Below are positions 1 to 27,575 of a stretch of 64,000 nt of DNA, in pieces; within the stretch, counting starts at the first letter, position 1; each line of letters begins with the position of its first letter. The stretch comes from Hippasteria phrygiana (taxonomy: Eukaryota > Echinodermata > Asteroidea > Valvatida > Goniasteridae), in contig JAZGUH010000227.1 in NCBI GenBank assembly GCA_037893225.1, positions 310,001 to 374,000 on the forward strand. Direction: 5' to 3'. The notes beneath the pieces were generated by a model, which did no database searches, was not told the DNA's origin, and saw nothing but the letters and a program-made list of their open reading frames with translations. A program made the position numbers and the translations under genes.

Positions 1-37
1 GTACTCTGTCATTAAATGAAACAAGAAGATTCACTCA

Positions 38-182
38 AACTTACCAAGAACGTTTCTTTGTTTCATATCAAGCAACAGTGACAATTTTAAGCAGGTAGGT
101 ATGCTTTTCACTAGCCCGGAGCAGTTTTTACTAGACATTGTACGCCAGGCTAGTGCTAAGGTCGAGGCCTGGACTTACGTCA
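38..182. repeat. Dispersed repeat with CTAGCCCGG motifs, copy 1
   Basis: Shares long stretches with 3885-4012 and 30425-30575, including a CAAGCAA.AGTGACAATTTTAA block, a CACTAGCCCGG block, a TACGCC.GGCTAGT block and the end GAGGCCT. Three copies in one window, all in the same orientation, show a dispersed repeat. No coding potential and no clear terminal inverted repeats were seen, so the class is unknown. Confidence 0.6.
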
Positions 183-1729
183 TTCTGATGTAATTAACAG
201 AATGGGGTTTTGCATTTTTTTGTTCCCGGTAAAAGGACGTTAGCGTATACATGTAATACCAATGTAACAAAACATGCTACAAGTGCATTCACCTCTCCAC
301 TCCAAAGGGACATAAACGCGCTTAGAGCCTCTTATCGGAAATATTAATAAATTTCATCTGACAAATTTAACTTTTTACGATTCTCAACTTAGAAATTCCA
401 AAAAAAAAAACTTTAAAGTCAATCTTTTTTGGAAAGTGTAATTATGCGTCAAAGTGCGCTTACGTCCTTCTGCCGGGCACACGACGAAATACAAACAATA
501 ATATTTCGTGCGGTCTTTGTTCGTTCTGCACAGCTGCGTGGGGAAATGAGTTCGAGCGTGCGTTTTCCGAGTGGTATCGAGTTCGAGCGTGCGGCTTGCG
601 TGTGGCCGGCAAACCGCACGCAAAGTCATCGCACACGCAAGCACACGAAGCAATGCTGTACCTCAACTCAAATTCCAACATCACATGTGTAAAGCGTCAG
701 GTTCAGGATTGCAATCCCGGGAAGACTTCGTGTGAAGTCGGGAAGGGGAACTTCTAAATAATTCTTAGACAACGAACCAACAAAGACAGTCGCACCTCAA
801 AGTGTAGTTTGCGAAATCTCTTTAAACTTTATTTGCTTTTCCAGATCCCAAACGGCAACTCTCTTCTTCAACCGCCAAACGCCAACTCTCTTCTTCAACC
901 GCCAAACGCTAACTGACTAAATTCTTTTAAGAACAAGTAAAACTTTAACTGTTATTCAATTCCTTTTCATAATATTATTCTCGAATCACTTTAACGCATG
1001 CACGCACGCACACATCTTTAACGCACGCAAGCAACGCACGCATGTACGCAGCTGCTTACGTGCCATGCATAATTATAGTTACTTTACAACTCTCTAAATT
1101 ATGCACGCACGCCCGCATATGTATGTGCTGCTCTCACGTGTCATGCATAATTATAGTTACTTTTAACAACACTACACATGTATCGTACTTAACCTTCCAA
1201 ACAGTGGCGTATCAAAGTTTGGAGGGGGGGGGGGGGGGGGGGCAAAATCAGAAATTTTCCTGAAAAAGTTGCTCCAACTCTTTTTGTCTTAAAAAATGGT
1301 TTTGAAAACATGTGGGGGGGGGGGGGGGCTTGTGAAGTTGATTAAAACAAAACAAACAAAAACAATCGGCAAAATGTTGGGGGGGGGGGGGGGGGGGTTG
1401 CTCCCTGCCAGATATTTTGTTTCTACCAACCGACCCTCCTTTTATGCGAAAACATTATGAGAACCATAGAAATAAAAAGAGATGCCCTAAACTGAAGTTG
1501 AATCCAATTTTGTTGGGGAGAAGAAACATTTTATTTATTTATTTTTATCATTGAAAGTACTTTTGTGGCTATGCACGGTGCGGGAACTTCGTGAAAAAAT
1601 AATGAGTACATTGTATAGCTGAAAAAAAGTGCTTTAAAGGGTTAAATGCACCATTATCAAATATGCGGGATTATACCCCACACACAAATATCATCTGATC
1701 AAAATTTACTTTCCACCCCCAACTCCCAG
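183..1729. other. Intergenic or intronic stretch without a recognised gene
   Basis: No convincing coding sequence. It holds a short tandem duplication (about 27 bp, near 850-905), an imperfect tandem duplication of about 95 bp around 1030-1165 (both halves contain CATGCATAATTATAGTTACTTT), and three poly-G runs near 1219-1242, 1313-1328 and 1379-1398. The 3' part is presumably intron upstream of the exon at 1730. Confidence 0.5.
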
Positions 1730-1873
1730 TCTTGGACTGCACTGGACGGTCCCCAGCGATCTATGGTCGCCCACCATATGAGCCACCAGGAGGGGACACA
1801 GGAGAAATTTTATGTTGCATCACATGCCCCAGCAGCTGCAGCAGAATCCACCAACATCATTGAAGGACTATGG
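1730..1873 (+). CDS. Exon: C-terminal catalytic box of a tyrosine-recombinase-like domain
   Basis: 48 codons between a polypyrimidine/AG acceptor (CCCAACTCCCAG) and a GTGAGT donor. The translation includes MVAHHMSHQEGTQEKFYVAS, resembling the last helix of phage-integrase-fold proteins, where a His/Gly-His turn precedes the Tyr nucleophile. It ends with an Ala-rich run and EGLW. The preceding R-H-R catalytic residues are not in the window, so this is a partial domain. It could be a transposon-derived (Crypton-like) cellular gene or a remnant. Confidence 0.55.
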
Positions 1874-4800
1874 GTGAGTGAGTTTTCTAATTATAAGACT
1901 TCATGCGCAAATGTTGAGAACACAAACTCACTACATGTACATGTATATATACATTGTACATGTATGTCTGTAAAACCTTCATCAGTGCATATTTTAAATA
2001 AGTGGTAGTTTCATTCTGCTAAACCCCCTTTCTGCTTCGGCCGAACTTGCGGGTATGGTCAGAAGCAGATTTATGAAGGTGGCTATGTTGGGGAGTTCAT
2101 CCTTCACAGCAGGGAGGAATTCATTCCACTGTGCCTAAAAAAGTAAATCAAGCAACATATTGAACTTTATATGTTAACTATTTATTTCATGATAATATTT
2201 ATTTAAGTACTGTACGTTGTAATTGATTGAACAGTGAGTTACACAGTAATACATGACGTACCTTGTATACACTCTGTTCTTCATCAAATTCCACTCCACC
2301 TCCAAATCCTCCAAAGCAACATCTGCAGCTTATAAAGCTGGCTCAAAAAGTACTTGGACTTCTTCATCTCCAAAGTCTGTTTGAAAAAAGCAGGTAAGTT
2401 AATTTAAATGATTAAATTAATTTATTGGTGTATATATTTATATGAATAACAAATATGAATTTTTAATGAATGTAAAATACCACCTTGCATCTCATCTTTC
2501 TTTGCAGGCCAAAACTTGAAACTGGATATTCTGAGAGCTTGAAGTGTACCAGTCTTCATATCAGAAAATCTTCCATTGAGTGAGGCCTGCAGACCTTGAA
2601 GCACTTGCACAACTGAGTTGTTGATGTTGCCTGCATCACCTAGTGGCTCTCCTTTAAATTATGTTGCATGTTCTAGGGATTTGAGCCTAGGCGTCGTCCT
2701 CCTTTAGAAATGAGATGAAACAATAAGTTCCATAATATTTACACAAAATTAACTGGAATCCTTCAATAAAATATTTCTTGTATTTTCTTAATTTTTGTAT
2801 TATTACTTTTACTTAATTGATAACTTTGTTGCTTACTTCGTTTCATATTTGGACAGTACAAACTGTGCAGACTCAATCGATGCCGCAACATCAGTCATGG
2901 TTGAGTTAGTAAGTTGTGCTGCAAAGGAGACCTTGGACAGGATATGGATTGTATCCAGCATGAAGTGGGCAAATTGTACAAGGTCTTTTCTGTGTAGCTG
3001 CCTCCGGAAGTTCTTGGCCTTTGCTTGAGCCTCACCAGTGACCCCCTGCTGCAACTCTAACTGTGAATAAATAAGAAATTCGAAAGATTAACAGTAACTA
3101 ATTTAAAATTTATAAAACTGCTGCAAACTGCTTTTGGATTAGATAATTGACCTGAAAAAATAAGACGGTCTGAGTTGCGGTCTTAACCAGCTCTTCAGAG
3201 GCATAATTAATTTACCTAATTTTTGTTAAGATCGAAATATTAGGCCCTCTTAATTTGATTTTTAAATTAAATTAAAAAGTACAAAATAATCACTTATTAA
3301 ATAGCATTGTTATACCTGATGAAGGTGACAAAGCAGTGGTGTGTAGCCATTGATCAATTGCTTCAATGCTCGTTCCACATGTGGCAACCATCTTGTGCCT
3401 CCAACACGTGTTGGAATGACAGCTGTCTGATTCATGGCCTTGGCAGCATCTTTAAGTCCACTTCGATTTTTTTTTGCTGTTCTTATAGAATAAGTACAGA
3501 TTCAGAAATAGGCTACTAAGTGATTTGTACAGCAGCACTTTGCTCACAGCATCTTTAAAGGCAAGTTCTACTCTATGGGCTGTGCAATAAACTGCCTGGA
3601 GTACAGGGAACTTGAGAAGTTTAGCCACTCCATTGATAAACGATGTGAACGAGAATAGTGTGCACATGTGCGGTACCGTACCTCGCCGTGAGCGCTCTAC
3701 TGTGCTATGATTACTACAACCCACCAATCTACTCTGTTCGTGGCACCAGCGCGCGCGGTCGATTATCGCTTGAGTATATCGCGCAAGTATCACGTTGGAA
3801 AAACCCAAATAAAAACACATTCACAATGACTCAGTTTTTGGCGATCCTGTATTTATTATTACCGAAAGCATTATTTTGATCTAAATTTTAACAGGTAGGT
3901 TACTGAATTTTTCACTAGCCCACCGGGCAACCAAGAAACCATGTTTAGGTAGCCCGGAGCGTTTTTCACTGGAATTTGTACGCCGGGCTAGTACTATTTC
4001 GAGGCCTGCTCGTACACGCAAAACTTGAGAAGACCCCTTGCTAATTTTTTTAAACAATTAAATAGACTTTCCTAATTGCTATATTTGCTTTACTATTGAA
4101 CAGAGAACCCCTCAAGAATGCCACGGAAGGTCCACATCTAACCTAGTAAGTTTGATGCATTCTACCAGTATACAATTACACAATGTAAATGTACTTTTCT
4201 ACTAACTTTATGTACTTTCCAGGTGAGAACAATGTGGTATTTAAACAAAACTTGTAGTCCGTGGGACGAGAGGTCAAAATCGCTTGAGTTTTTAAGATAC
4301 ATGATCTACACGTACCTCTTGGAATTTCATGAGTCTCGTGATGCCCTTCTTCGTTTAACCATGGTTTAGCATTACAATGACCATGACTTGCAGCGATGTT
4401 AAACTAAGAATTCTTACTTTACGACGACCCGATTGGCCCAGTAAAAAATAACAATGTCGTGGTTAGATTTAACAATGCAACGATGATATTTAACAATGCA
4501 ATGATGGCATTTAACAATTTGAAAATTTCAAAGCCCGTCCACAATGGACTTAATTTGGTTGAATTGGTAAGAGTCTTTATTAGTTTAACCAAGAATGTTC
4601 AATGCAGACATGCAGCTAGAATGTGAACAAACATTTATTGTTTCTACACTTTTGTTCTCTTTCCTTCATAAATATTTAACAGAGAACCCCTGAAGAATGC
4701 CCCAGAACTTCCACATCCAACCTTGTAGTAAGTTTATACAATTAAATGTACTTTTCTAATACATGTTAGTACTTTTCTACTGTCCAGTTGTTTCGAAACA

Positions 4801-7800
4801 AAAACATTCTACGGTATAAATTCTGCCCAAGTATCAACAAAAGAAATAGCACTCTCAAATTGGTAAAAGTACTTATAAAAAAAAACCTAAAAAGAAAGAT
4901 TTCATTCCTAAATTATCAGTAGAGGTAAAGCAAATCTATGAACTTTTACATGTAGTCTTCACAAATGATAATGTAGGGGTAATTAAAAAATTGGCAGCAA
5001 AGTTGATTTTGTACAGCAGTTTCGTTTATTAAGTCATTGAAGGTGATCAGACACCTCAAAAACAAAGCCAAACAAGACAGCTGATTAGCTACAAATTCAC
5101 AAGTTTAATTACAAGACGAATGGAGTAAAATTAGAGATGGTTGTTATACTTCTAATCATGAAAGTTAATCTTCAGTTTGTGTAGACCAAACACCGCAAAT
5201 GCGGTGTTGTTTTTTAGACTATTGTTTTTAAATACACTTTTGTACTCTTTGCTTCATAATAAGTTTAATTACATTTTAATAGAGAATCCCTGAAGAATGC
5301 CCTGGAACTTCCACGTACAAACACGTAAGTTTACCAGTATACAATTACATGCGCTTTTTTACTTACATGTATGTGACAGCCCTTTCCAAAACCAGGCAGT
5401 TCCAGCATTTAACAGAATGGCATTACATTTTTAAAATGTTCAAAAGTGGTTACGTGTTTTCAACATAATTCCCATCTCTAGACCATGGTGAGGGCTCATT
5501 TTAAAGCTCTTGAACTTTCAATGATCAGCCAAAATACCAAATTTTGATTTTGGGAAAGAGCCTGGTTTTGACAGAAAATCACATATGGGTCATTCCACCA
5601 GGTTGGGACACAGTGTGTGACATTTATCCATATCTTTAAAAGTGCTATTACACTTTATTCAGTTTTTTTATGTACATGTAACATCAGTCTTTGGGTGGGA
5701 AATATTTTTGAAAGTTTTAAATCATGTAAATTATATTTTACCAAAAATATGATTAAAAATATAATTCAGTTTGACATAACCAGTTTGACGTAACAGGACA
5801 CGTCCATATTTCCATTTTTGTGTTTTTTCAACACTTTATATATAATTATTGGAAATTCACCATGTGTACTAATTAAAAGATATACTATGCAACACAAGAA
5901 CACTTTCGTTATGGTAGTCAGTGTCCAAATATAGCAGAGACAGCAAACACAGACGTGAGAATAGACGTAACATGGACACTGTGTCCACTATTACATGTAC
6001 GTCCACACATGCATGTTTTTTTTTTTTCTTGGTGTTTTTGAGCTATTTGGACACTGGCAACCATAACAAAAAAGTGTTTTCTGGTAGCATTGAGTGTCTT
6101 TTAGTTAGTACATATAATAAGTTGCATAATTATTTATTTCATGACGAAAAATTAATGCAGTCTGGACATAACATTTAGTACTAACATGGTGCGACATGAA
6201 AATGCACATTTCCATTTTGTAACATTTTCAACATTTATATAAATAATTATGCAAACTCACTCCGTATACTAATTACAAAACATAAACTGCAACACAAAAA
6301 CAATTGTTATGATATTCAATATCCAAATGCAGCACAACAGCAGGAATATATGTATAGTCATGGTGTCCATGTTACGTCTGCACCGATTCTTAAAATTCTT
6401 GCTATTTCTGCTACATTGTATATTTGGACATTGACTGCCGTAAAAGGGTGTTTCATTGTTGCATAGTGTGTCTTTTAATTATTGTACATAATAAATGTTC
6501 CATATTTATTTATTAAAGTGTTAAAAAACCACAACAATTTTAATGTTGGTCACAGTGTCCATGTTACATCTATTTTACATTAAAAGAACCACACTTTTTA
6601 TCATATTTTTGTAAAAATATAACTTACATGATTGAAACTTTCTCAAATAATCTCACACCCAAAGACGGATGTCACATGAAATAATTGAATTAAATGTAAT
6701 GATGGTTTTAATGATATGGTCATATACACACTGTGTCCCAATCTGGTGGAATGACCCATGTACTTTATTTGATTCAGTTGGAACGTAACAAAAATTTAAT
6801 CTACATGTAGATAATGCAAATAAAGTTTTTCCAACTTCATACGCGGTTATTACCCCATGCGACAAGAAAGCCATAATGAATTCAAACTTCGAGAAGGTAA
6901 TGGTTTTGTTTACGTATGGCCAGAGCAGTTTTATTGCCAGAACAATTTAGGTTTCCGATCGTTGAGATTCGCGAAACCTGTAACTTGACATACAGTAGCT
7001 CATAACATAACCCAACTTGGTTCCCGATCGTTGCATAACAGAAATTCTCTGTCAGCAATGCTGATGCATTATCTCTTAAATGGACACTGTCTTCCATAAA
7101 TATGCTCCATGACACCGCCCTACGAATACCGCATTCAATTAGCGATCCAGCAGTTAATGCTCGCTGGGCACATTCTGGTGGTTTGCGCAAGCGTAGACCA
7201 CCCAGACCACACGCGGTAAGATAGAAGACCAAAACATTATGGTTTGGGGTAACAGACTACGTGTCACTGTCAAGGCAGATTTTGCAACTTCCATAATTGC
7301 CTTTTTAGGGAAATTCCCCAGATCATTTGAACCAATGTGAAATATGATATAGTCAGGGTTGTGTTGTTCCAACTCCCAGCACCAGTGAAGAAAATAGTTA
7401 AAATGCGACAGGGGGAGGCCTAGTCCCCACCTTGAGGTTTTGACTTTATACCATACAAGACCTTGTGTCAATCAACAGTAGCCCAAATGGGTGCCAGAAA
7501 GGAGCGCCTGTTCCAGCCCTGCCAAACGACCTTCTCATGGTAATAAATTCTTTGAAGCAGCATGGGCCTCAAATGAATTATTATATTCATTATTATATTG
7601 AAAATGTATTCAAATTTACCTAGTCAGTTTCCCTTGTGGATTGTGTGACGTATTATAAATTAAAAAGTCGTATCCTCATTGAGTGATCTCCACAATGTCG
7701 CTTCCCAGGTTGTATCGTAAAATTGGGTGTGATCCCTGGCTACACGGCATTCTGGGTTTATGACTTCTGACTAGCGCCCACTCGAACAAAGATACTGACA

Positions 7801-18220: not shown

Positions 18221-19443
18221 TGATCATGGAACTCCACTTGTTCAGATGGTGGCGTATGTAGAATTTTAGTGGCCGTTGTAAGGTTGAATTTTGAATTTTT
18301 TGTTTGGATTGAATTTGAAACTATTCTCTATCGTACAATTGCCTGGACCCTACTATCGCCAGATCATGTCCAAATGTTAAAAAAGGCGATAAAGGGTCCA
18401 AGTTACTCGGACTAGGGTATAAGTAAAATCGTTCCCACTGATATTCGTGTGGCTACACATGTAGAACCATGGAGAAATAAGAGTAGAACCAACATGTTCA
18501 CCTCCTTCCTACTATTTAAAAGGTCAAAATCAGTCAAAATTTCCTTCCACTTCCCCTGCTATACTTTTACACAGACATGATCAGATTACATGTGGTTTTG
18601 TACTATGGCAGGAGGGTCAAAAACAATCACCTTGACTGATTTTGACCCATACAACAACATGGCTCAGAATGTATGATTGCATTTTAGGGAGGTTTTAACG
18701 GGGGAATAGCAAACTGAAATACCTGTGCAGTGTGCATGTCGTTTTCCAGTCTGGAATTTTCAAGCAAGCCGACAGTCCAACTTTAGTGTTCCTTCCTCCA
18801 TGCTTCGACTAACCATATTCCTTCCTCCATGGACTAACAGTAACAGATGATGTTGTAAAATGTATCCACAATCAGATCCCTGTTTACCGTCCATGATATA
18901 GTCATGTATAACTAGTACAAACAACGTGCATGTGCCCTGGCACACAGGCCCGATCACTCGATGTTCCCACTTGCACAGACGAATCCGTTATGCATTGCAT
19001 ACAGCGCGCCCAGCCAGCGCCACCACATGCGTGCTCCCCCCTCTCCCCTCCCTCCCTCCCTCCCTCCCTCCCTCCCTCCCCCCTCCCCCTCCCTCTCCCC
19101 CCTCCTCCCCCGCCTTGCTGTATAAAAAAGAACTCTCAGTGACTAGATAAAGTTTGCAGGATTCATTGACCACTAGGCCTTTACAGAAACACTTCAGAGC
19201 TGTAATTTTATACAGAAAATGGATTTGCAGGCTATTCATATACAGTATCAAGAAGATTACTAGCGAGTGAATGCATGGAGCAAATTGGATGATGTTTTAT
19301 TTAGCATGTGTCACGAAAAATAGAAGGCTTAATTATTTTTATGTTGCTTTTGAATATCTGGTTTGCGAAATCGAAACCGAATAATGGAATTCAAATCGAA
19401 TGTTAAAAATCCGGAAATATATCCCACCACTTAACTTGACGCA
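18221..19443. other. Gene-free stretch with a small inverted repeat and a microsatellite
   Basis: GGTCAAAATCAGTCAA (18522) and its complement TTGACTGATTTTGACC (about 18633-18648) bracket about 100 bp and may be a small MITE. A (CCCT)n/(CCTC)n tract lies at 19037-19111. If the RAG1-like gene belongs to a transposon, its far terminus should be in or left of this stretch, but no convincing RSS-like end was recognised. Confidence 0.5.
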
Positions 19444-20218
19444 TTATTCTTTGTTCTTAATTCCAGCCTGCTGCATTTCTTGATGCACTTCGGGAAATGT
19501 TGTTGTGAGATGCCGACGCATGATGCTTATCATCTTTGGAAGCTCCTCTCTCATTCCCTGCACGGCTCTGCCAGCTCGATTAAATTCAGTGTGCACCAGC
19601 TCACCGCCTTGCTCATTGAGAAGACCTAGACCAACCTGGAATCTCTGAAGTTGCTCCATGGTGTGGTCCTCCAGCATATGCAGCTTCGGAGTTATGGTTG
19701 CCTCTGGAAATGACTCGCGGTAAACATGCATGAAGTTTTTGATGCACACATCTAAAAGAACAAACAATTAGGTACAATTGTTATTAAAACAAGATCATTT
19801 CCTAATGTAAATCTAATGTGTTACTTTTGATGGCTTATTTTAAAATTAAATGTGTACCTTAGTAGAAGAAATGCAAAGTTGTACCTATTTGCTCAAGGTC
19901 TGAATGTGAAATTGCCTTTGCATGATTGATGGCTTGGTGGACATCTGCAAAGCTCAGAAACACTTCATGAAATGTGTCACCTAACTTTGCAGCCTTCCGC
20001 CTTATTCTTTCAGATGCTGCAATTGCCAAGTCATCGAGAGGCATCTGATTAGTCATCCGTTTAGGCTGAGACATCAGATCATCAATGACGGGTATCTGTG
20101 AAAGGGCACCACAGTACGCACATTTTATAATTTCAAGGTACATTTTTATATTCAATTGCACATCACTTATAATTTAATGCTTAAACTAGTCTGTAATGTT
20201 CGTTTCGACAATTGGAGA

Positions 20219-20270
20219 CTTGTTTTTTTTCTCTTATAAATCCGGGGGGGGGGGGGGGGGGGGGGGGAGA
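20219..20270. repeat. Poly-T and poly-G tract inside a RAG1-like intron
   Basis: T-rich tract followed by about 23 G residues (20244-20267), between exons 8 and 9. It would read as poly-C then A-rich on the gene strand. Its length is likely to vary and is a place where assembly may be unreliable. Confidence 0.7.
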
Positions 20271-22737
20271 GACCAAAATGTGTGTTTTTACCTGACAACA
20301 CTTGTTGACATGGTTTCCCACAAAAGACTTGCCATGATATGCCTGCCTGTGGACTTTATGCTTCTTAAGCACACCATCCAGACTACTGGCGATTGGTCCA
20401 GTGCCAAACTCAAGTTTAGTTTTGGCTTTATTTTGCTCCTGAAAAAATAACATGGGAGAAAGATACGCACTTTAAAAGAATGGCATTCCATGTTAATAAA
20501 TTAATACAAATCAAAATAAAATAACAATTACAAACCATGTCAGCAATATCTGCCTTGAGCAACTGAATGCCGTTGACCAATTCATTGTCTCCATCGCTGT
20601 GAAGGTCATTCAGGAGAGGAAGAGGAATTTCATCTTCGAGATTCTCCAGCTGAAGTCGCTTTTTTTGCAGGTCCTTCTCTACTTCCTTCTTTCTTGATGA
20701 TTCGGCTGCAATGTTGTGGTCAAAGTTGGTGGTCAAGTTGACGTCCTCATCCTCGCTTGCAATGGATTTCTGTTCAAGAATTTCCACATCTAATCGGTGG
20801 CATTCCATCTCAAAGAAATCGTATAACCTCTTATATACACCGAGGGATATGTGCAATGTTGGGATGATGACCTACATAAGAAATATACATTTGTGTGCAT
20901 GAACTTCTTTAATTCATTTGTTCATTAGTTTTGTACCCAAGTAGACAGTTCTTATAAACTGATTTGACAGCCTTTGATGACAATAGACTTACATTGTCAA
21001 TTTCAATCTGAAGCATAGGTATGCTGACCACACTGTACGAAACATCTTTGGCCCTGTTCCTCCTCTGTCCGTCATTAACGAAGAGTTGGTGCTGGTCACT
21101 GATTGATTGTAGGGATCGTCCGAATGCCTTTCCCCTCTCACACAGTGGTCGCTGCATCTGCTCTTTACTTATACGGCAGTAAATGCAGCAGTAACGGGCT
21201 ATACAAGTTAAAAATAAATGGAAGCACAAAATGCAATTGGAAATGGAATTGTTTTTATATTTGTGGACGTTATAATATTGAGAAGAAAACAATGGCTACT
21301 AACTATTTGAGCTACAAATTCCATACAACTTTGTTAGGAAAGGTTAGTCTCCGAAACTCAGTAGGCGAAACGAATGTCCTCTGGAATGAGCCAAGAAAAT
21401 AATACATATTTGAAAAAATGGTCACTAAAGATACCCCTTGCGCCAACAGTTGTCAGTACAGGTATTTTATGTGCTTATGTAAATGCTTACCTCCATTTTT
21501 GCTTGGCCAGATCAGCTACTTGGTCGAGTACCTGAGGAAGTGTTATCTGGAGGTTGTAGTAGCTGTCATCTCCTTGGAAGCATGCACATACAACCGTATT
21601 TTTGAGGCTATTGGGATGGTGTACATTGACAATTTGGAAGGCCATTTTGAAAGATGTTCCACCCTTGTCCCCACCAAATTTAACCCATATCTCATTTTTA
21701 GGTATGACACCATCATGCCATGTGAGTAAGTTGGTCCTGTGTAAAAAAAAAGAAAAAAGAAGTACTGTACTGTATATTTTTCAACCTCACATTTATGCTG
21801 TTGAAAATAATGTACTGTTAATATTCTTGTTAATTTCAGCTTGCAAACTTACTGGTCCAGCCTGTCCAAGTAGTCAAAGATCATAGCACAGATGTCGTTG
21901 ACTTTTACAAAGGGCGCTTCCTTGATTACATATCCATCAACGGCATCAGCGTTCGTGCTGGGGAACTGCAAAGGAACCATACCACCTTGGATGTAGTCTT
22001 TGAGGAGCTCCTGCTGGGTACGTCTCATTGCCCTCTCAGAGGAGACGGATGGAGTAGACATGTACCTGTAAAATGTTACCTAATTTATTCTGATTATGAA
22101 CGAAAATGCCATGTGTGTAATAAACGAATGGCTCATTACTTGCAACAATTTTGGGCATAAGACAAACATTAATATAATTGAAATGCATATCTGAAGTTTT
22201 CAAAATAATTATTGGTAAGGTCGGGCCCACATAGATCTATTTTACACAAACAAATTAATCCCGACTAATAATTTATTGCACACACCGTCTTATTTTGCGC
22301 ATCTGCTCCCAGCCTAGATGGCAGTCTCTCATCATGGCAAGCCCCTTGTTAGCAGGCATGGGTGGAATGTCCTTGGAACTTGTTTGCACATTCTGTGGGT
22401 CTTTACATGAAACTTGGCGTATGTGAGCAGGCTATAAAGAAACAAGAACAGTAATGGAGAATTTCATGTGTATGCTCCCAAATTATAAACCCCCCATTAG
22501 TCACTGTAGTGGGAAAAAATTGATGTCGTTTCTTAATTTTGGTAAATTTTTTGCAGTCTTTCACCTGGCAGAAATTGTAAATTTATGTCTTTAAAACAGG
22601 GACAGCTGTTTCAAAGCCAAATTTGCCCATTAAAATATTCTGTATCAAAACTGTAATAGCATAGACATGTTTAACCTTTAATAGTAGACCTTTTAACCCC
22701 CTACCAAAATAGACATATTGGCTGTTTATTTACTCAC

Positions 22738-23754
22738 TCTACCTCCTGTATCTAATTTGGCAACCCTTCCTTTCTGATTTAATTTGAGCCAGGTCCAGCG
22801 GTCCGTGGCTTTCTCCACTTCCAAGGGGATTGGTTGCCCACGTGGATGCTGCAGGGCACTCCTGCGGAGGATGTTAGCAGCTTCAATAACAACATCTTCA
22901 TGCTTTGGGGAAGCAACACTTTCTACGACAGTACATCTTCGTTTAGTCTGAGGGACATCCGGTAGTGGTGTTCTTTCACAGCGATGTTGCGCTAAGCTAG
23001 GAAGTTTACCGATGGCACTGCAGACACTACAAGCTACATCCAAGTTCTGAAGTTGGACACTCAGTATTCGTGGACTTTCCCTGACTTCAGTGAACTTAAT
23101 TTGTGACTGGCATGTTGGACACTTAACTATGGATGACCGATGAAATTTGAAATACGAAGATAAACAAATTGCAAAAAAATAATGTTCGCAGGTTGTTTGC
23201 AGTGACGGAGAAGAAATTATACACTGACAAATAGAACAAGTAAAAATAGAATGCTCATCAAAGTTCCTTCCGAAAATGTCTAAATATGGAGAATTATCAG
23301 ACGGTGGGTCTACAGATCTCTTCGACAGCTGTTCGAATATGTTACTTGCTGTGATGTTGTATGGCAAGCTATCTAACACAGCAGATGGGCGTTTTGTGCT
23401 AGTGGTTTTAGGTCGAGGTCCAGTTTTAGAGTTTTCACGGTATAGTTCACAAATGTTACACTTCTTGCTTCTTACATGGGGGGTCCACTTAATAGCAGGA
23501 GCACCTGGAGTTGTGTAGGTCCTAGTCCCTGCCTGTAAATGCCTTACCTTCCTGGAACAGTTGAGACAAATGTACTGTGGATGTTCATCAATCCTGTCCT
23601 CCCATGTATTTATTCCAAATATTAGATTAATCTCCTTTTTGCAACTGGAAACTTCTAATAATTTTCTAGAATCTTGCTTCTTGTGAGTCAGTCTCCTACC
23701 ACAACAACGGCACACTTTTTCTAGTATTTTTAAGTGGAAATCATAACTGCTCAT
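22738..23754 (-). CDS. RAG1-like exon 1: N-terminal zinc-binding and RING region
   Basis: 339 codons from ATG at 23754 to a GTGAGT donor at 22737. Without splicing the frame would end three codons later. CxxC15-18 and CxxC63-66 match the first zinc pair of the RAG1 N-terminus, and KWTPHVRSKKCNIC (89-102) matches its HxxxxxCxxC block. The RING is C172, C175, C188, H190, C196, C211, C214. Position 193, normally the fifth ligand (HxFC), is Phe (TTT). A basic tract after residue 258 leads into a Lys/Arg-rich end before the splice. This N-terminal half resembles vertebrate RAG1 more clearly than the core does. The start is the first Met of the open frame, 11 codons before the first Cys motif. Confidence 0.75.
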
Positions 23755-24761
23755 TGTGCAATATTAACTGCAACGGTAGTGTGTGTATGTAAAACTCAGC
23801 GAGCGCAGTGCATGTGTGTGAATTATTTGTGTACACATTAACTTTTCAATTGCGCGCGTTGTGTGACGTCATTCCCTTTCAATTGTACACGTAACTTTCA
23901 CGCAGTTCTGCGCCTCCACGTAACGCAACCCAAATAAACCCGAAATAACGATGCACAAAACGACATGAAACTGTGCTGGCCCGGCTTTAAAACTTAAATT
24001 TTTAGTGAAATATATGTATCATCAATTGTATTTTTGTACATGCGTGTTTGTACAATTGGTTTGGAATTATTTCTCGCCGACTTTTTGAAGTGATTGAATA
24101 AAGAACAGGACAAAAATAAAACACAAATGTCGACACAGAAATCGTATTTTTGTATTGTTTTTATTCGTTTCCATCCTGCTGTAGCCTAAAATCTGTTAAA
24201 TATATTGTTTCTAAGTTATATTTATGTATCGGTTCATTATAAAACAAAACTTGCTGCTCTCTAAATACAAAAACAACGATCGTTGATCGTCGCATTCGTG
24301 AGAGCCGCCATTTTGTTTTTGGCCCGTGCTTACTGGAGCAAATAAATAACCATCGTGCGTTTGTTCGGACTTTAACGCACGGTCTATGGGAGTGGAACAG
24401 CCGTGTCGACCACACTGCAGCCCTACAACACTGCCCCCCTACAACACTGCCCAAACGATCCCGCACAATCCAGCGACCACACCCGGAATATTCGTCCGGC
24501 TATACCGTCGCAATCTTGACGCGAGACCGTTCTTGCGAGTTTGGCGACAGCACCTGAACGTAAATCTTACTACCTCGCCGCCATCTTTGGAACTGACCAT
24601 GGCCCCGCGGCAAACGCCCAGACCTAGCACAATACACGATGCTGATTGGTCGCTGCGCGTCATGCATTATTCATACACCATTCATACACCGGATGTACCG
24701 GGCGCGCGCACACATACGTCATCAGCTAGTCTTGATATCAGTCTACCCCTGTTTCGCTACA
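23755..24761. other. Stretch upstream of the RAG1-like gene
   Basis: Holds the presumed promoter of the RAG1-like gene, but no TATA box or other element can be named with confidence. A CRE-like TGACGTCA sits at 23864-23871. A direct repeat CCCCTACAACACTGCC occurs at 24419-24449. No coding sequence that could be supported was found. Confidence 0.4.
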
Positions 24762-24794
24762 GTTGCAATATTCGATAATCTACGTATTTTTGTG

Positions 24795-25135
24795 CGATGT
24801 TCAAATATATATGTGCGATGTTTGACATTATGTGCGATGTTCAAATATATATGTTCGATGTTTGTCATTATGTGCGATGTTCCAATTTATATGTGCGATG
24901 TTCAAATATATATGCGATGTTTTGTCATATATGTGCGATGTTTGTCATATATGCGATGTTCAAATGTATGTGTGCGATGTTTGTTATTATATGTACGATG
25001 TTCAAATATATATGCGATGTTTGTCATATAAATTATGTGCAATGTTCAAATTTATATGTGCGATGTTCAAATTTATATGTTCAATGTTTGTCATATATGT
25101 TCGATGTTCAAATAATATGTGCAATGTTTTTCAAT
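24795..25135. repeat. Tandem array of TGTGCGATGTTCAAATATAT-like units
   Basis: About 14-15 units of roughly 20-25 bp, alternating ATGTGCGATGTTCAAATATAT and ATGTGCGATGTTTGTCATTAT forms. The opposite arm of the same element has only about four units (27002-27085), so the array length differs between arms of one element. Subterminal arrays of this kind usually bind transposase. Confidence 0.85.
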
Positions 25136-25731
25136 TTATATTCGAAAACGGAATTGTGGGATATAGTATGGTTTCCAGACCGAAATAGTATGAATATTCC
25201 TAATAAGTTACATCAGGGACCAGACTACTTAGGACGGTATATCTGTTGCACTGACCTGGCTGAAGCTAGCCCGCGATTCAGCCGGCGATTTGCAATAGGG
25301 CCCGCGATTCGCCCGATCAGAGCAGCCGCATATTAAAAACTAGAATCCATTCGACAAAAGGAGTTTTTCTTAATGAAATCGCTGGATTCAGGCAACGAAT
25401 TTTCGATAAATGTCAAAACATTACATACCAATTTTTGCATGAAATTTTAGAATAGGTATGAGCAAAGCTGTAGATATTATACTTAACATTGTTTTATGGG
25501 TCTTTTTCAATGGATTAATTAGTCGTTTCGCGAAGGCCCATTTCAAAGGCTTCTCTACATCAATTCCTTTCGGCTCAGCACAATAGCTTCTGTTTGAAAG
25601 AAAGTGTACCACACATGTTTTTAAAAATTCATATTTTTCTTTTATATTCATAATTGCCACCTTCCTGGGCACACTTAATTTCAGCAACGAGCTTATTGCA
25701 AGAATAGCTTTTGTTCCAAATAGCCGCTTAA

Positions 25732-25950
25732 AGACGGATCATTTTCATGAATATCTGGAAATGCGGTATTCGGAGTTTCGTGTGAAATGCCGTCTTTGAG
25801 AGAAAGTACCCGGGAAGGTGGGAATTATGAATATTAAAGAAAAAAAAGAATTTTTCAAAATATGTGTGGTACACTTTCTTTCAAAGACGGCACATTTCAC
25901 ACGAAACTCCGAATATCGCATTTCCAGATATTCATGAAAATGATCCGTCT
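25732..25950. mobile_element. 219-bp TTAA-flanked hairpin element
   Basis: TTAA flanks both sides (25728-25731 and 25951-25954). The termini are perfect inverted repeats starting AGACGGATCATTTTCATG and extending about 55 bp. The loop (about 25815-25880) is a diverged copy of the host element's arm sequence (compare 26484-26548: AATTATGAATAT, GTGTGGTACACTT). Confidence 0.85.
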
Positions 25951-26036
25951 TTAAAGGCAGTGTACATGATTGGTCATTGTTGCAATTTTTAGAAATGGGC
26001 GGATTTGGGGGTTAGTATGTTATAGGAAATATCATT

Positions 26037-26420
26037 CCACTGACCTGTTCAAAGTTTTGCGTTGTTAGATGGCTAAAAAAAACGAGTGAAAAACGGCGCT
26101 TGTTTTCAACTGTCCGGCGGATTTTAGTCAAGGCGCGCGTGTCTATCTGGGCCCGGATATGCCAAGGCGCCATCATGTCCGGGGCGCGCCACTTGTCCAG
26201 GTAGCCACTCCCGTCTTGACTAACGGCGACAGGGCAGTTCTCCAACGATTTCCAGCTGGAAATCGTTGGAAGACGATATAAATTTTCACTTTTCTTGACA
26301 ACGACAGCACATCTAGTGCCATAATTTCACAGGATAATTGAGACTATTAATAACTTACAGTCTACACAGGTATTTTGTAATAATTCATTAAAAAACATTT
26401 TTTGAGAATTACTAATCGTG
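26037..26420. repeat. Dispersed repeat containing CCAACGATTTCCAGCTGG
   Basis: The reverse complement of this block occurs at 58862-59195: the self-complementary CCAACGATTTCCAGCTGGAAATCG-type stretch, the GACAGCACA...GTGCCATAATTT block, CCACTGACCTGTTC and AACGGCGCT are all present. Shorter relatives of its second half are at 44490-44640, 49410-49560 and, inverted, 54960-55070 (GATGCTTGAGACTA). This is an abundant unclassified repeat. Confidence 0.65.
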
Positions 26421-27575
26421 TACACTTTTTTTAAGAAGCTATTCTTGGAATAGGCCCTTGCTGAAATTAAGTGTGCCCAGGAAGGTGGCAATTATGAATA
26501 TGAAAGAAAAATATGAATTTTTAAAAACATGTGTGGTACACTTCCTTTCAAACAGAAGCTATTGTGCTGAGCCGAGAGGAATTGATGTAGAGAACCCTTT
26601 GAAATGGGCCTTCGCAAAACGACTAATTAATTCACTAAAAAAGACCCATAAAACAATGTTAAGTATAATATCTACAGCTTTGCTCATACCTATTCTGAAA
26701 TTTTATGCAAAATTGGTATGTATTTTCTTGACATTTTCTAAAAAAATTCGTTGCCTTAATCCAGCGATTTCATTAAGAAAAAACTCCTTTTGTCGAATGG
26801 ATTCTAGTTTTCATTATGCGGCTGCTCTGATCGGGCGAATCGCGGGCCCTAGTGCGAATCGCGGGCTAGCTTTAGCCAGGTCAGTGCAACAGATAGACAG
26901 TCCAAAGTAGTCTGGTCCCTGATGTAACTTTTTAGGAATATTCATACTATTTCGGTCTGGAACCATACTATATCCCACAATTCCGTTTTCGAATATAAAT
27001 TGAAAAACATCGCACATATTATTTGAACATCGAACATATGACAAACATCGACAAACATCGCACATTATTTAAACATCGCACAAAAATACGTAGATTATCG
27101 TATATTGCAACGTTTGACATGCCATAGATTAGGCCCTAGGCCTACTCTATTTCTATTCGCCAAAAATGTGACGGTCCTGAAAATTTTTCTCGAACATTGA
27201 TGATGTACAAAATAAAAACGCTAAGTTCAGAGAAGACAGTATAGCCGTATCGAAGCCGAGCATTGAGAAATGATCCATAGTCCACGGTGCTTTTCCCCTT
27301 ACACCCAACCAGTCCAACACGTACAGCATTTGGCAAAAAATGTGCACAACACATTCTGAACTTGCTACCTCCATGAGACTTCCAACCTTGTACAAGTCAT
27401 GTGCGTCGCATGGCATCGCGCAATGAACGTGAGGGATCATTTATGCGGGGATCACACAGTCCCGATTATGGCTCCCGTTGGCGATCAGACAGCGCTACGA
27501 CACGAAAAGTGAAAAAGTCGAATTACAATCCTCAATGATCTGGAATGTCCTATCATTGTCTGAACGCAGTCGCAT

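Follow-up and report, generated by a model that had tools for sequence, protein, structure and literature searches.

The DNA analysed here, a stretch of 64,000 nucleotides from the sea star Hippasteria phrygiana (the window), very probably carries a Chapaev element, a DNA transposon of the cut-and-paste type, in decayed form; less damaged relatives of this element encode a single transposase in ten exons. The preserved part of the element is located on the minus strand at 19099..24405. Its 5' end lies at 24405 and its 3' end has been lost beyond 19099, as defined by alignment with a sister copy on contig C564 of the same genome.

The gene of the window copy consists of ten exons on the minus strand, running from 23754 to 19444 and comprising 969 codons including the final stop. 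All nine introns begin with GT and end with AG, and the reading register is kept across the joins. This confirms the preliminary description of ten in-frame GT-AG exons with about 968 codons. The motifs named there were recovered at the same positions (WHDG at residue 465, GGDKGG at 480, FGD at 550 and NEQGGE at 912), and the reproduced residue numbers indicate that the two models are very likely the same. The model is far above chance, with two proteins of Asterias amurensis aligning over 100% and 98% of the chain. In addition, the exon borders lie close to residues at which the tblastn pieces of one sister element break.

Exon 1 (22738..23754, minus strand as all exons) encodes RAG1-type zinc fingers ('Chapa' / RAG1_imp_bd) followed by a RING, as indicated by Pfam matches below cut-off and by a profile of relatives. 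Exon 2 (22286..22431) is placed by the gene model and tblastn, and the DUF1280 core begins in exon 3 (21853..22065; gene model and Pfam). Exon 4 (21491..21736), within DUF1280, contains WHDG and GGDKGG with Asp482, the proposed first catalytic Asp, in a column at least 90% conserved among 39 relatives. The FGD of exon 5 (21304..21380) contains Asp552, the proposed second catalytic Asp, which is invariant in the 39 relatives and aligns with an Asp of a RAG1L protein of the same genome. YCCIYC in exon 6 (20993..21198) corresponds to the C(2)C motif by the gene model and the alignment of relatives, and TLHISLG in exon 7 (20536..20871) to the LH motif by the gene model and its position. Exons 8 (20292..20438) and 9 (19885..20095) follow from the gene model. 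Exon 10 (19444..19751) contains KLHMLEDH, the H(4)H motif, and NEQGGE with Glu913, the proposed catalytic Glu (gene model and conservation). CxxC pairs start at residues 15, 63, 99, 173, 212, 242 and 571 of the protein. Note that the intron between exons 8 and 9 contains a run of 24 G (window 20244-20267).

Pfam identified the core of the window protein as DUF1280 (PF06918; E=8.4e-20; score 71.8 bits, cut-off 25), a domain equated with the Chapaev transposase in a passage of PMC3985635. A Transib/Chapaev-type core had been suggested for this gene. The Chapaev part of this assignment stands, while the Transib/RAG1 part does not, with no match to the RAG1 core family PF12940. The HMM search of the spliced translation proposed at that stage matched DUF1280, left PF12940 unmatched and returned RAG1_imp_bd and RING below their cut-offs. 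When the read-through protein (with X at the stop) was compared with ~5.8 billion proteins, two homologs were found, both from Asterias amurensis (P0001 and P0002; 47% and 43% identity, covering 100% and 98% of the query), and a profile search led to the same pair. Starting from the Asterias core, a search collected 39 proteins (the query counted), with echinoderms, Branchiostoma, Sycon, Lineus and Hydra among their sources. A Pfam scan at E<=0.01 detected DUF1280 in 37 of these 39 and RAG1_imp_bd in 13, and precomputed Pfam assignments placed both domains together in 12 of the 39. In a tree of 40 proteins, the window copy grouped with proteins of Asterias, Amphiura and Antedon (5 rows, 100/100).

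We propose Asp482, Asp552 and Glu913 as the DDE triad. These residues correspond to Asp494, Asp564 and Glu934 of P0001, of which Asp564 is invariant in the 39 relatives and the other two are each at least 90% conserved. For the first Asp and the Glu, the assignment relies on conservation and order only, since neither falls within a significant RAG1 alignment. Along the alignment, C(2)C is followed by LH and then by H(4)H; in the window copy, all three and Glu913 are located beyond a premature TAA (see below). A section of PMC4079192 names the DDE residues, together with C(2)C, LH and H(4)H, as characteristic of Chapaev, and one of PMC12730594 names C(2)C and H(3-4)H as characteristic of a wider clade with Transib and RAG1.

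The host genome (944 Mb) was searched at the DNA level, and the 40 candidates scored out of 1375 included a near-full-length sister on C564 and a partial sister on C1006, each about 94% identical to the window copy. The complete C564 element (F0b) measures 6733 bp, and over its positions 1-5222 the window is 94.8-95.6% identical to it. These three copies have the 5' end CACGGCTG in common and different DNA outside. The 5' terminal inverted repeat of the window copy, CACGGCTGTTCCAC, occupies 24392..24405 (minus strand) as an exact match, and the flanks of the three copies diverge beyond it. Sister elements of the same genome end in CACGGCTG...CAGCCGTG.

The best exon-1 matches in the genome supplied two more families, F1 and F2. 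Six of seven elements were followed to both ends (three F1, two F2 and F0b); the seventh, on C461, has Ns at its 5' end and was left out. All six complete elements have CAC...GTG ends and exact 4-bp target duplications, each different (GGTA, TGTC, TGGC, ACTA, TGCT and GCTG). The inverted ends are identical over 12 bp in F1 and over 13 bp in F2; in F0b they agree at 14 of the first 15 bp. A 4-bp target duplication is what PMC4079192, in the relevant passage, expects of Chapaev. The relatives therefore display the CAC/GTG inverted ends and the 3- to 4-bp target duplication that define Chapaev, and the window copy displays the 5' end only. A scan for exact 10-mer inverted repeats around the window copy turned up no pair that was convincing or flanked by a target duplication, because the 3' end is lost, as learned from the sister copies. 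For the same reason, the 3' inverted repeat and the target duplication of the element rest on the relatives.

Over 8.8 kb, identity among the three F1 copies is 99.6-99.7%, and their flanks differ, which suggests recent movement. In one F1 copy all ten tblastn pieces were free of stops; in F2 some pieces contained stops, perhaps from read-through introns. DUF1280 matched at least 103 places in the genome, counted exon-wise. Exon 1 gave 83 matching rows, 29 of which cover at least residues 12-330, and 17 of these 29 have no inner stop. A scan of viral contigs found no relative. Six Chapaev exon-1 copies with equal scores and one TGA each were observed at C76:1857889-2672178; in two pairs among them the spacing is exactly 55,499 bases, which would fit a duplication of the surrounding segment.

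We next consider the damage to the window copy. A premature in-frame TAA is present at codon 553 in exon 5 (21344..21346, minus strand), directly after FGD and the proposed second catalytic Asp. Both Asterias homologs and the C564 copy have Tyr at this position. The Asp552 of the preliminary description already counts exon 5, the exon with this stop. A zinc-ligand position of the RING is occupied by Phe194 (23173..23175, minus strand), where both sister copies (C564 and C1006) and both Asterias proteins have Cys. Finally, the 3' end is missing: homology to the complete C564 sister stops at 19099, ~1.5 kb before that sister's 3' end, at a pyrimidine-rich stretch, and a search of the window for C564 element positions 5223-6733 found only short scattered matches. 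With these three lesions, the gene can no longer be called nearly complete, as it had been. We also searched for splice models that skip the TAA, allowing one exon of at least 20 nt between exons 4 and 6 and considering models with up to two stops. No model without an inner stop retained the Asp of FGD, and the relatives keep the exon 5 reading. The TAA is the sole stop within the ten exons, as would be seen if it were a sequencing or assembly error or a polymorphism in an otherwise whole transposase. Such an origin, itself compatible with Chapaev identity, is very unlikely, as the loss of the RING ligand and the missing 3' end would remain.

The pattern of substitutions bears on whether the host has instead domesticated a Chapaev transposase, perhaps as a truncated 552-residue zinc-finger/RING protein without catalysis. 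In favour of this, nine of the ten exons have no stop, the transposon's 3' end is missing, and the TAA leaves the entire N-terminal module and the first part of the core. Relative to the C564 sister, coding sites are slightly less diverged than non-coding sites (76/2878 versus 89/2307 differences; p=0.016). However, the differences are spread evenly over codon positions (24, 22 and 30; chi-square p=0.50), the RING zinc ligand is lost, and sister copies have frame breaks of their own. Domestication is thus highly improbable. Comparison with the C1006 copy gave 13, 13 and 19 differences by codon position and 39/711 at non-coding sites. F0b has frame-breaking indels, and the window copy is less damaged in frame than F0b. 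An even spread over codon positions is what a copy free of selection on its protein would show. Its decay appears close to that of an unselected copy, and the slightly lower divergence of coding sites makes some past selection possible. Judging from its lesions, the window copy looks dead and probably can no longer move.

The N-terminus of the window gene is, at the level of sequence, a set of RAG1-type zinc fingers with a RING. When the profile of 39 relatives was compared with the PDB, RAG1 (6oem_A) scored best across the zinc fingers and RING (E=2.9e-19), and within the top 60 of 251 matches all other RING proteins ranked below it. A three-sequence profile placed RAG1 and BRCA1 nearly level (6.1e-6 versus 6.7e-6). 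With exon 1 of the window alone, RING (E=7.8e-4) and RAG1_imp_bd (E=0.015) both scored under the Pfam cut-offs, and a comparison with the PDB returned 24 sequences at E<=10, with BRCA1 first, other RINGs following and RAG1 not among them. Thus the RAG1-style N-terminus of the preliminary description is supported by the profile of relatives and appears only weakly in exon 1 by itself. RAG1_imp_bd was not found at E<=1 in the two Asterias homologs. It scored 0.01 in exon 1 of F1 and gave no match at E<=0.1 in exon 1 of F2, where zf-AD scored 0.0041.

The genome also contains RAG1L loci. All nine PF12940 matches in the genome lie on four other contigs, outside the window; a separate comparison with residues 390-968 of the window protein found no match to PF12940 at E<=1. 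The best PF12940 locus, on C182, has RAG1_imp_bd (1.7e-13), RING (3.9e-9) and RAG1-core frames in a row. This locus (C182:1010233-1016145) is split over several reading frames, reflecting introns or decay. Its N-terminus and RING aligned with the Chapaev profile by hhalign (E=3.8e-12 and 2.6e-11), and direct BLASTP against window exon 1 gave E=3e-6. The Chapaev profile aligned with one RAG1-core piece across the second Asp and C(2)C (probability 70%, E=4.2e-5). Against four more such pieces, taken from three contigs, it reached probabilities below 5% (E=0.0096 to 0.58); among these four, the RAG1L piece with a GDGMGD stretch did not align with GGDKGG of Chapaev. Strong N-terminal and mostly weak core alignments thus argue, on sequence grounds, that the front halves of Chapaev and RAG1L are related and the back halves only remotely so.

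A true RAG1 or RAG1L gene of the RAG/Transib lineage shares with the window gene the order of N-terminal zinc fingers and RING, which is as in RAG1 and in this genome's RAG1L, but such a gene is extremely improbable here, given a DUF1280 core with PF12940 confined to the four other contigs, a clear alignment with the Chapaev profile for only one of five RAG1-core pieces, and 4-bp target duplications in six of six complete sister elements versus the 5 bp almost always seen for RAGL elements, as stated in a passage of PMC7204232. Identity as a RAG1 or RAG1L gene is accordingly refuted at the family level, and we regard the locus as a disabled transposon copy.

The earlier observation that no RAG2-like gene lies beside the gene is correct within the preserved element. 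Outside the gene, 19099-24405 contains only ~0.35 and ~0.65 kb, leaving no room for RAG2L. In the 3' parts of three complete sister elements, Met-started ORFs reached only 62-109 aa (60-aa threshold; judged by length). Elsewhere in the window, a Pfam comparison of five long ORFs gave nothing at E<=0.01.

These features suggest how the Chapaev element would move. The transposase of the less damaged relatives would combine 'Chapa' zinc fingers and a RING with a DDE core of the RNase H type (Asp482, Asp552 and Glu913 in window numbering). The core is expected to bind the CACGGCTG ends and cut there, and the excised DNA would be joined to the target with a 4-bp stagger, generating the 4-bp target duplications. 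Judging from RAG1, the N-terminus most likely has a regulatory role, acting through RING dimerisation or ubiquitin ligase activity and nuclear import. In the window copy, translation should halt at codon 553, upstream of C(2)C, LH, H(4)H and the Glu.

Two other repeats were observed next to the element. A 251-bp repeat at window 24429-24679 lies 24 bp from the Chapaev end, and 28 further near-full copies (93-96%) were present among 40 places scored. These copies often occur as same-strand pairs 5.7-8.5 kb apart, resembling the LTRs of retrotransposons; among the 40 places scored, there was no second copy on the window contig. At window 24762-27111, long nested inverted repeats with arms of up to 255 nt (96% complementary) form a foldback-like structure, with TGTGCGATGTT-type units repeated in its outer part.

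Taken alone, the window copy is a fossil from a transposon group that was already known, and its relatives are of more use. Near-identical 8.8-kb relatives with stop-free exon matches, defined ends and target duplications share one genome with a RAG1L that has the same N-terminal module. Such relatives would permit laboratory tests of what the RAG1 N-terminus does in a transposase that does not belong to the RAG/Transib lineage, and the origin of the RAG1-type module could be traced by a tree. One genome thus holds Chapaev with a RAG1-type N-terminus together with RAG1L loci, one of them with the same N-terminus and RING. It is conceivable, if unlikely, that the front module was exchanged between the Chapaev and RAG1L lineages by recombination in one genome, rather than deriving from one ancient fusion followed by repeated loss.

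Chapaev transposons with a Chapa domain and RING were reportedly described by Kapitonov and Jurka in 2007. According to passages of PMC4411706 (Kapitonov and Koonin 2015), the N-terminal region of RAG1 contains the 'Chapa' domain, named after Chapaev transposons, and two Chapaev subgroups have a RING finger after this domain, like RAG1. The link between a RAG1-like N-terminus and a Chapaev core is thus already published, and the window copy adds one more, decayed member to a known group. With the Chapa-RING Chapaev elements it shares the RAG1-type zinc-finger N-terminus, the RING, the DUF1280 core and, by way of its relatives, CAC...GTG ends and 4-bp duplications; it differs in being truncated and stop-bearing, and the likeness is drawn from published descriptions. 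N-RAG-TP of Aplysia, a transposon described in a passage of PMC8355894 as composed entirely of a RAG1 N-terminal-like sequence, would by that description have this part in common with the window element, which also has a core. The Asterias amurensis proteins P0001 and P0002 are homologous to the window protein from end to end and have the same motifs; unlike the window copy, they are free of stops, carrying Tyr where its codon 553 is TAA and Cys at the RING ligand position. RAG1 and RAG1L (ProtoRAG, TransibSU) share the N-terminal zinc fingers and RING, and the second Asp and following C(2)C align with this genome's RAG1L. They differ from the Chapaev element in core family, in the lack of RAG2L from its preserved part, and in having 5-bp rather than 4-bp duplications.
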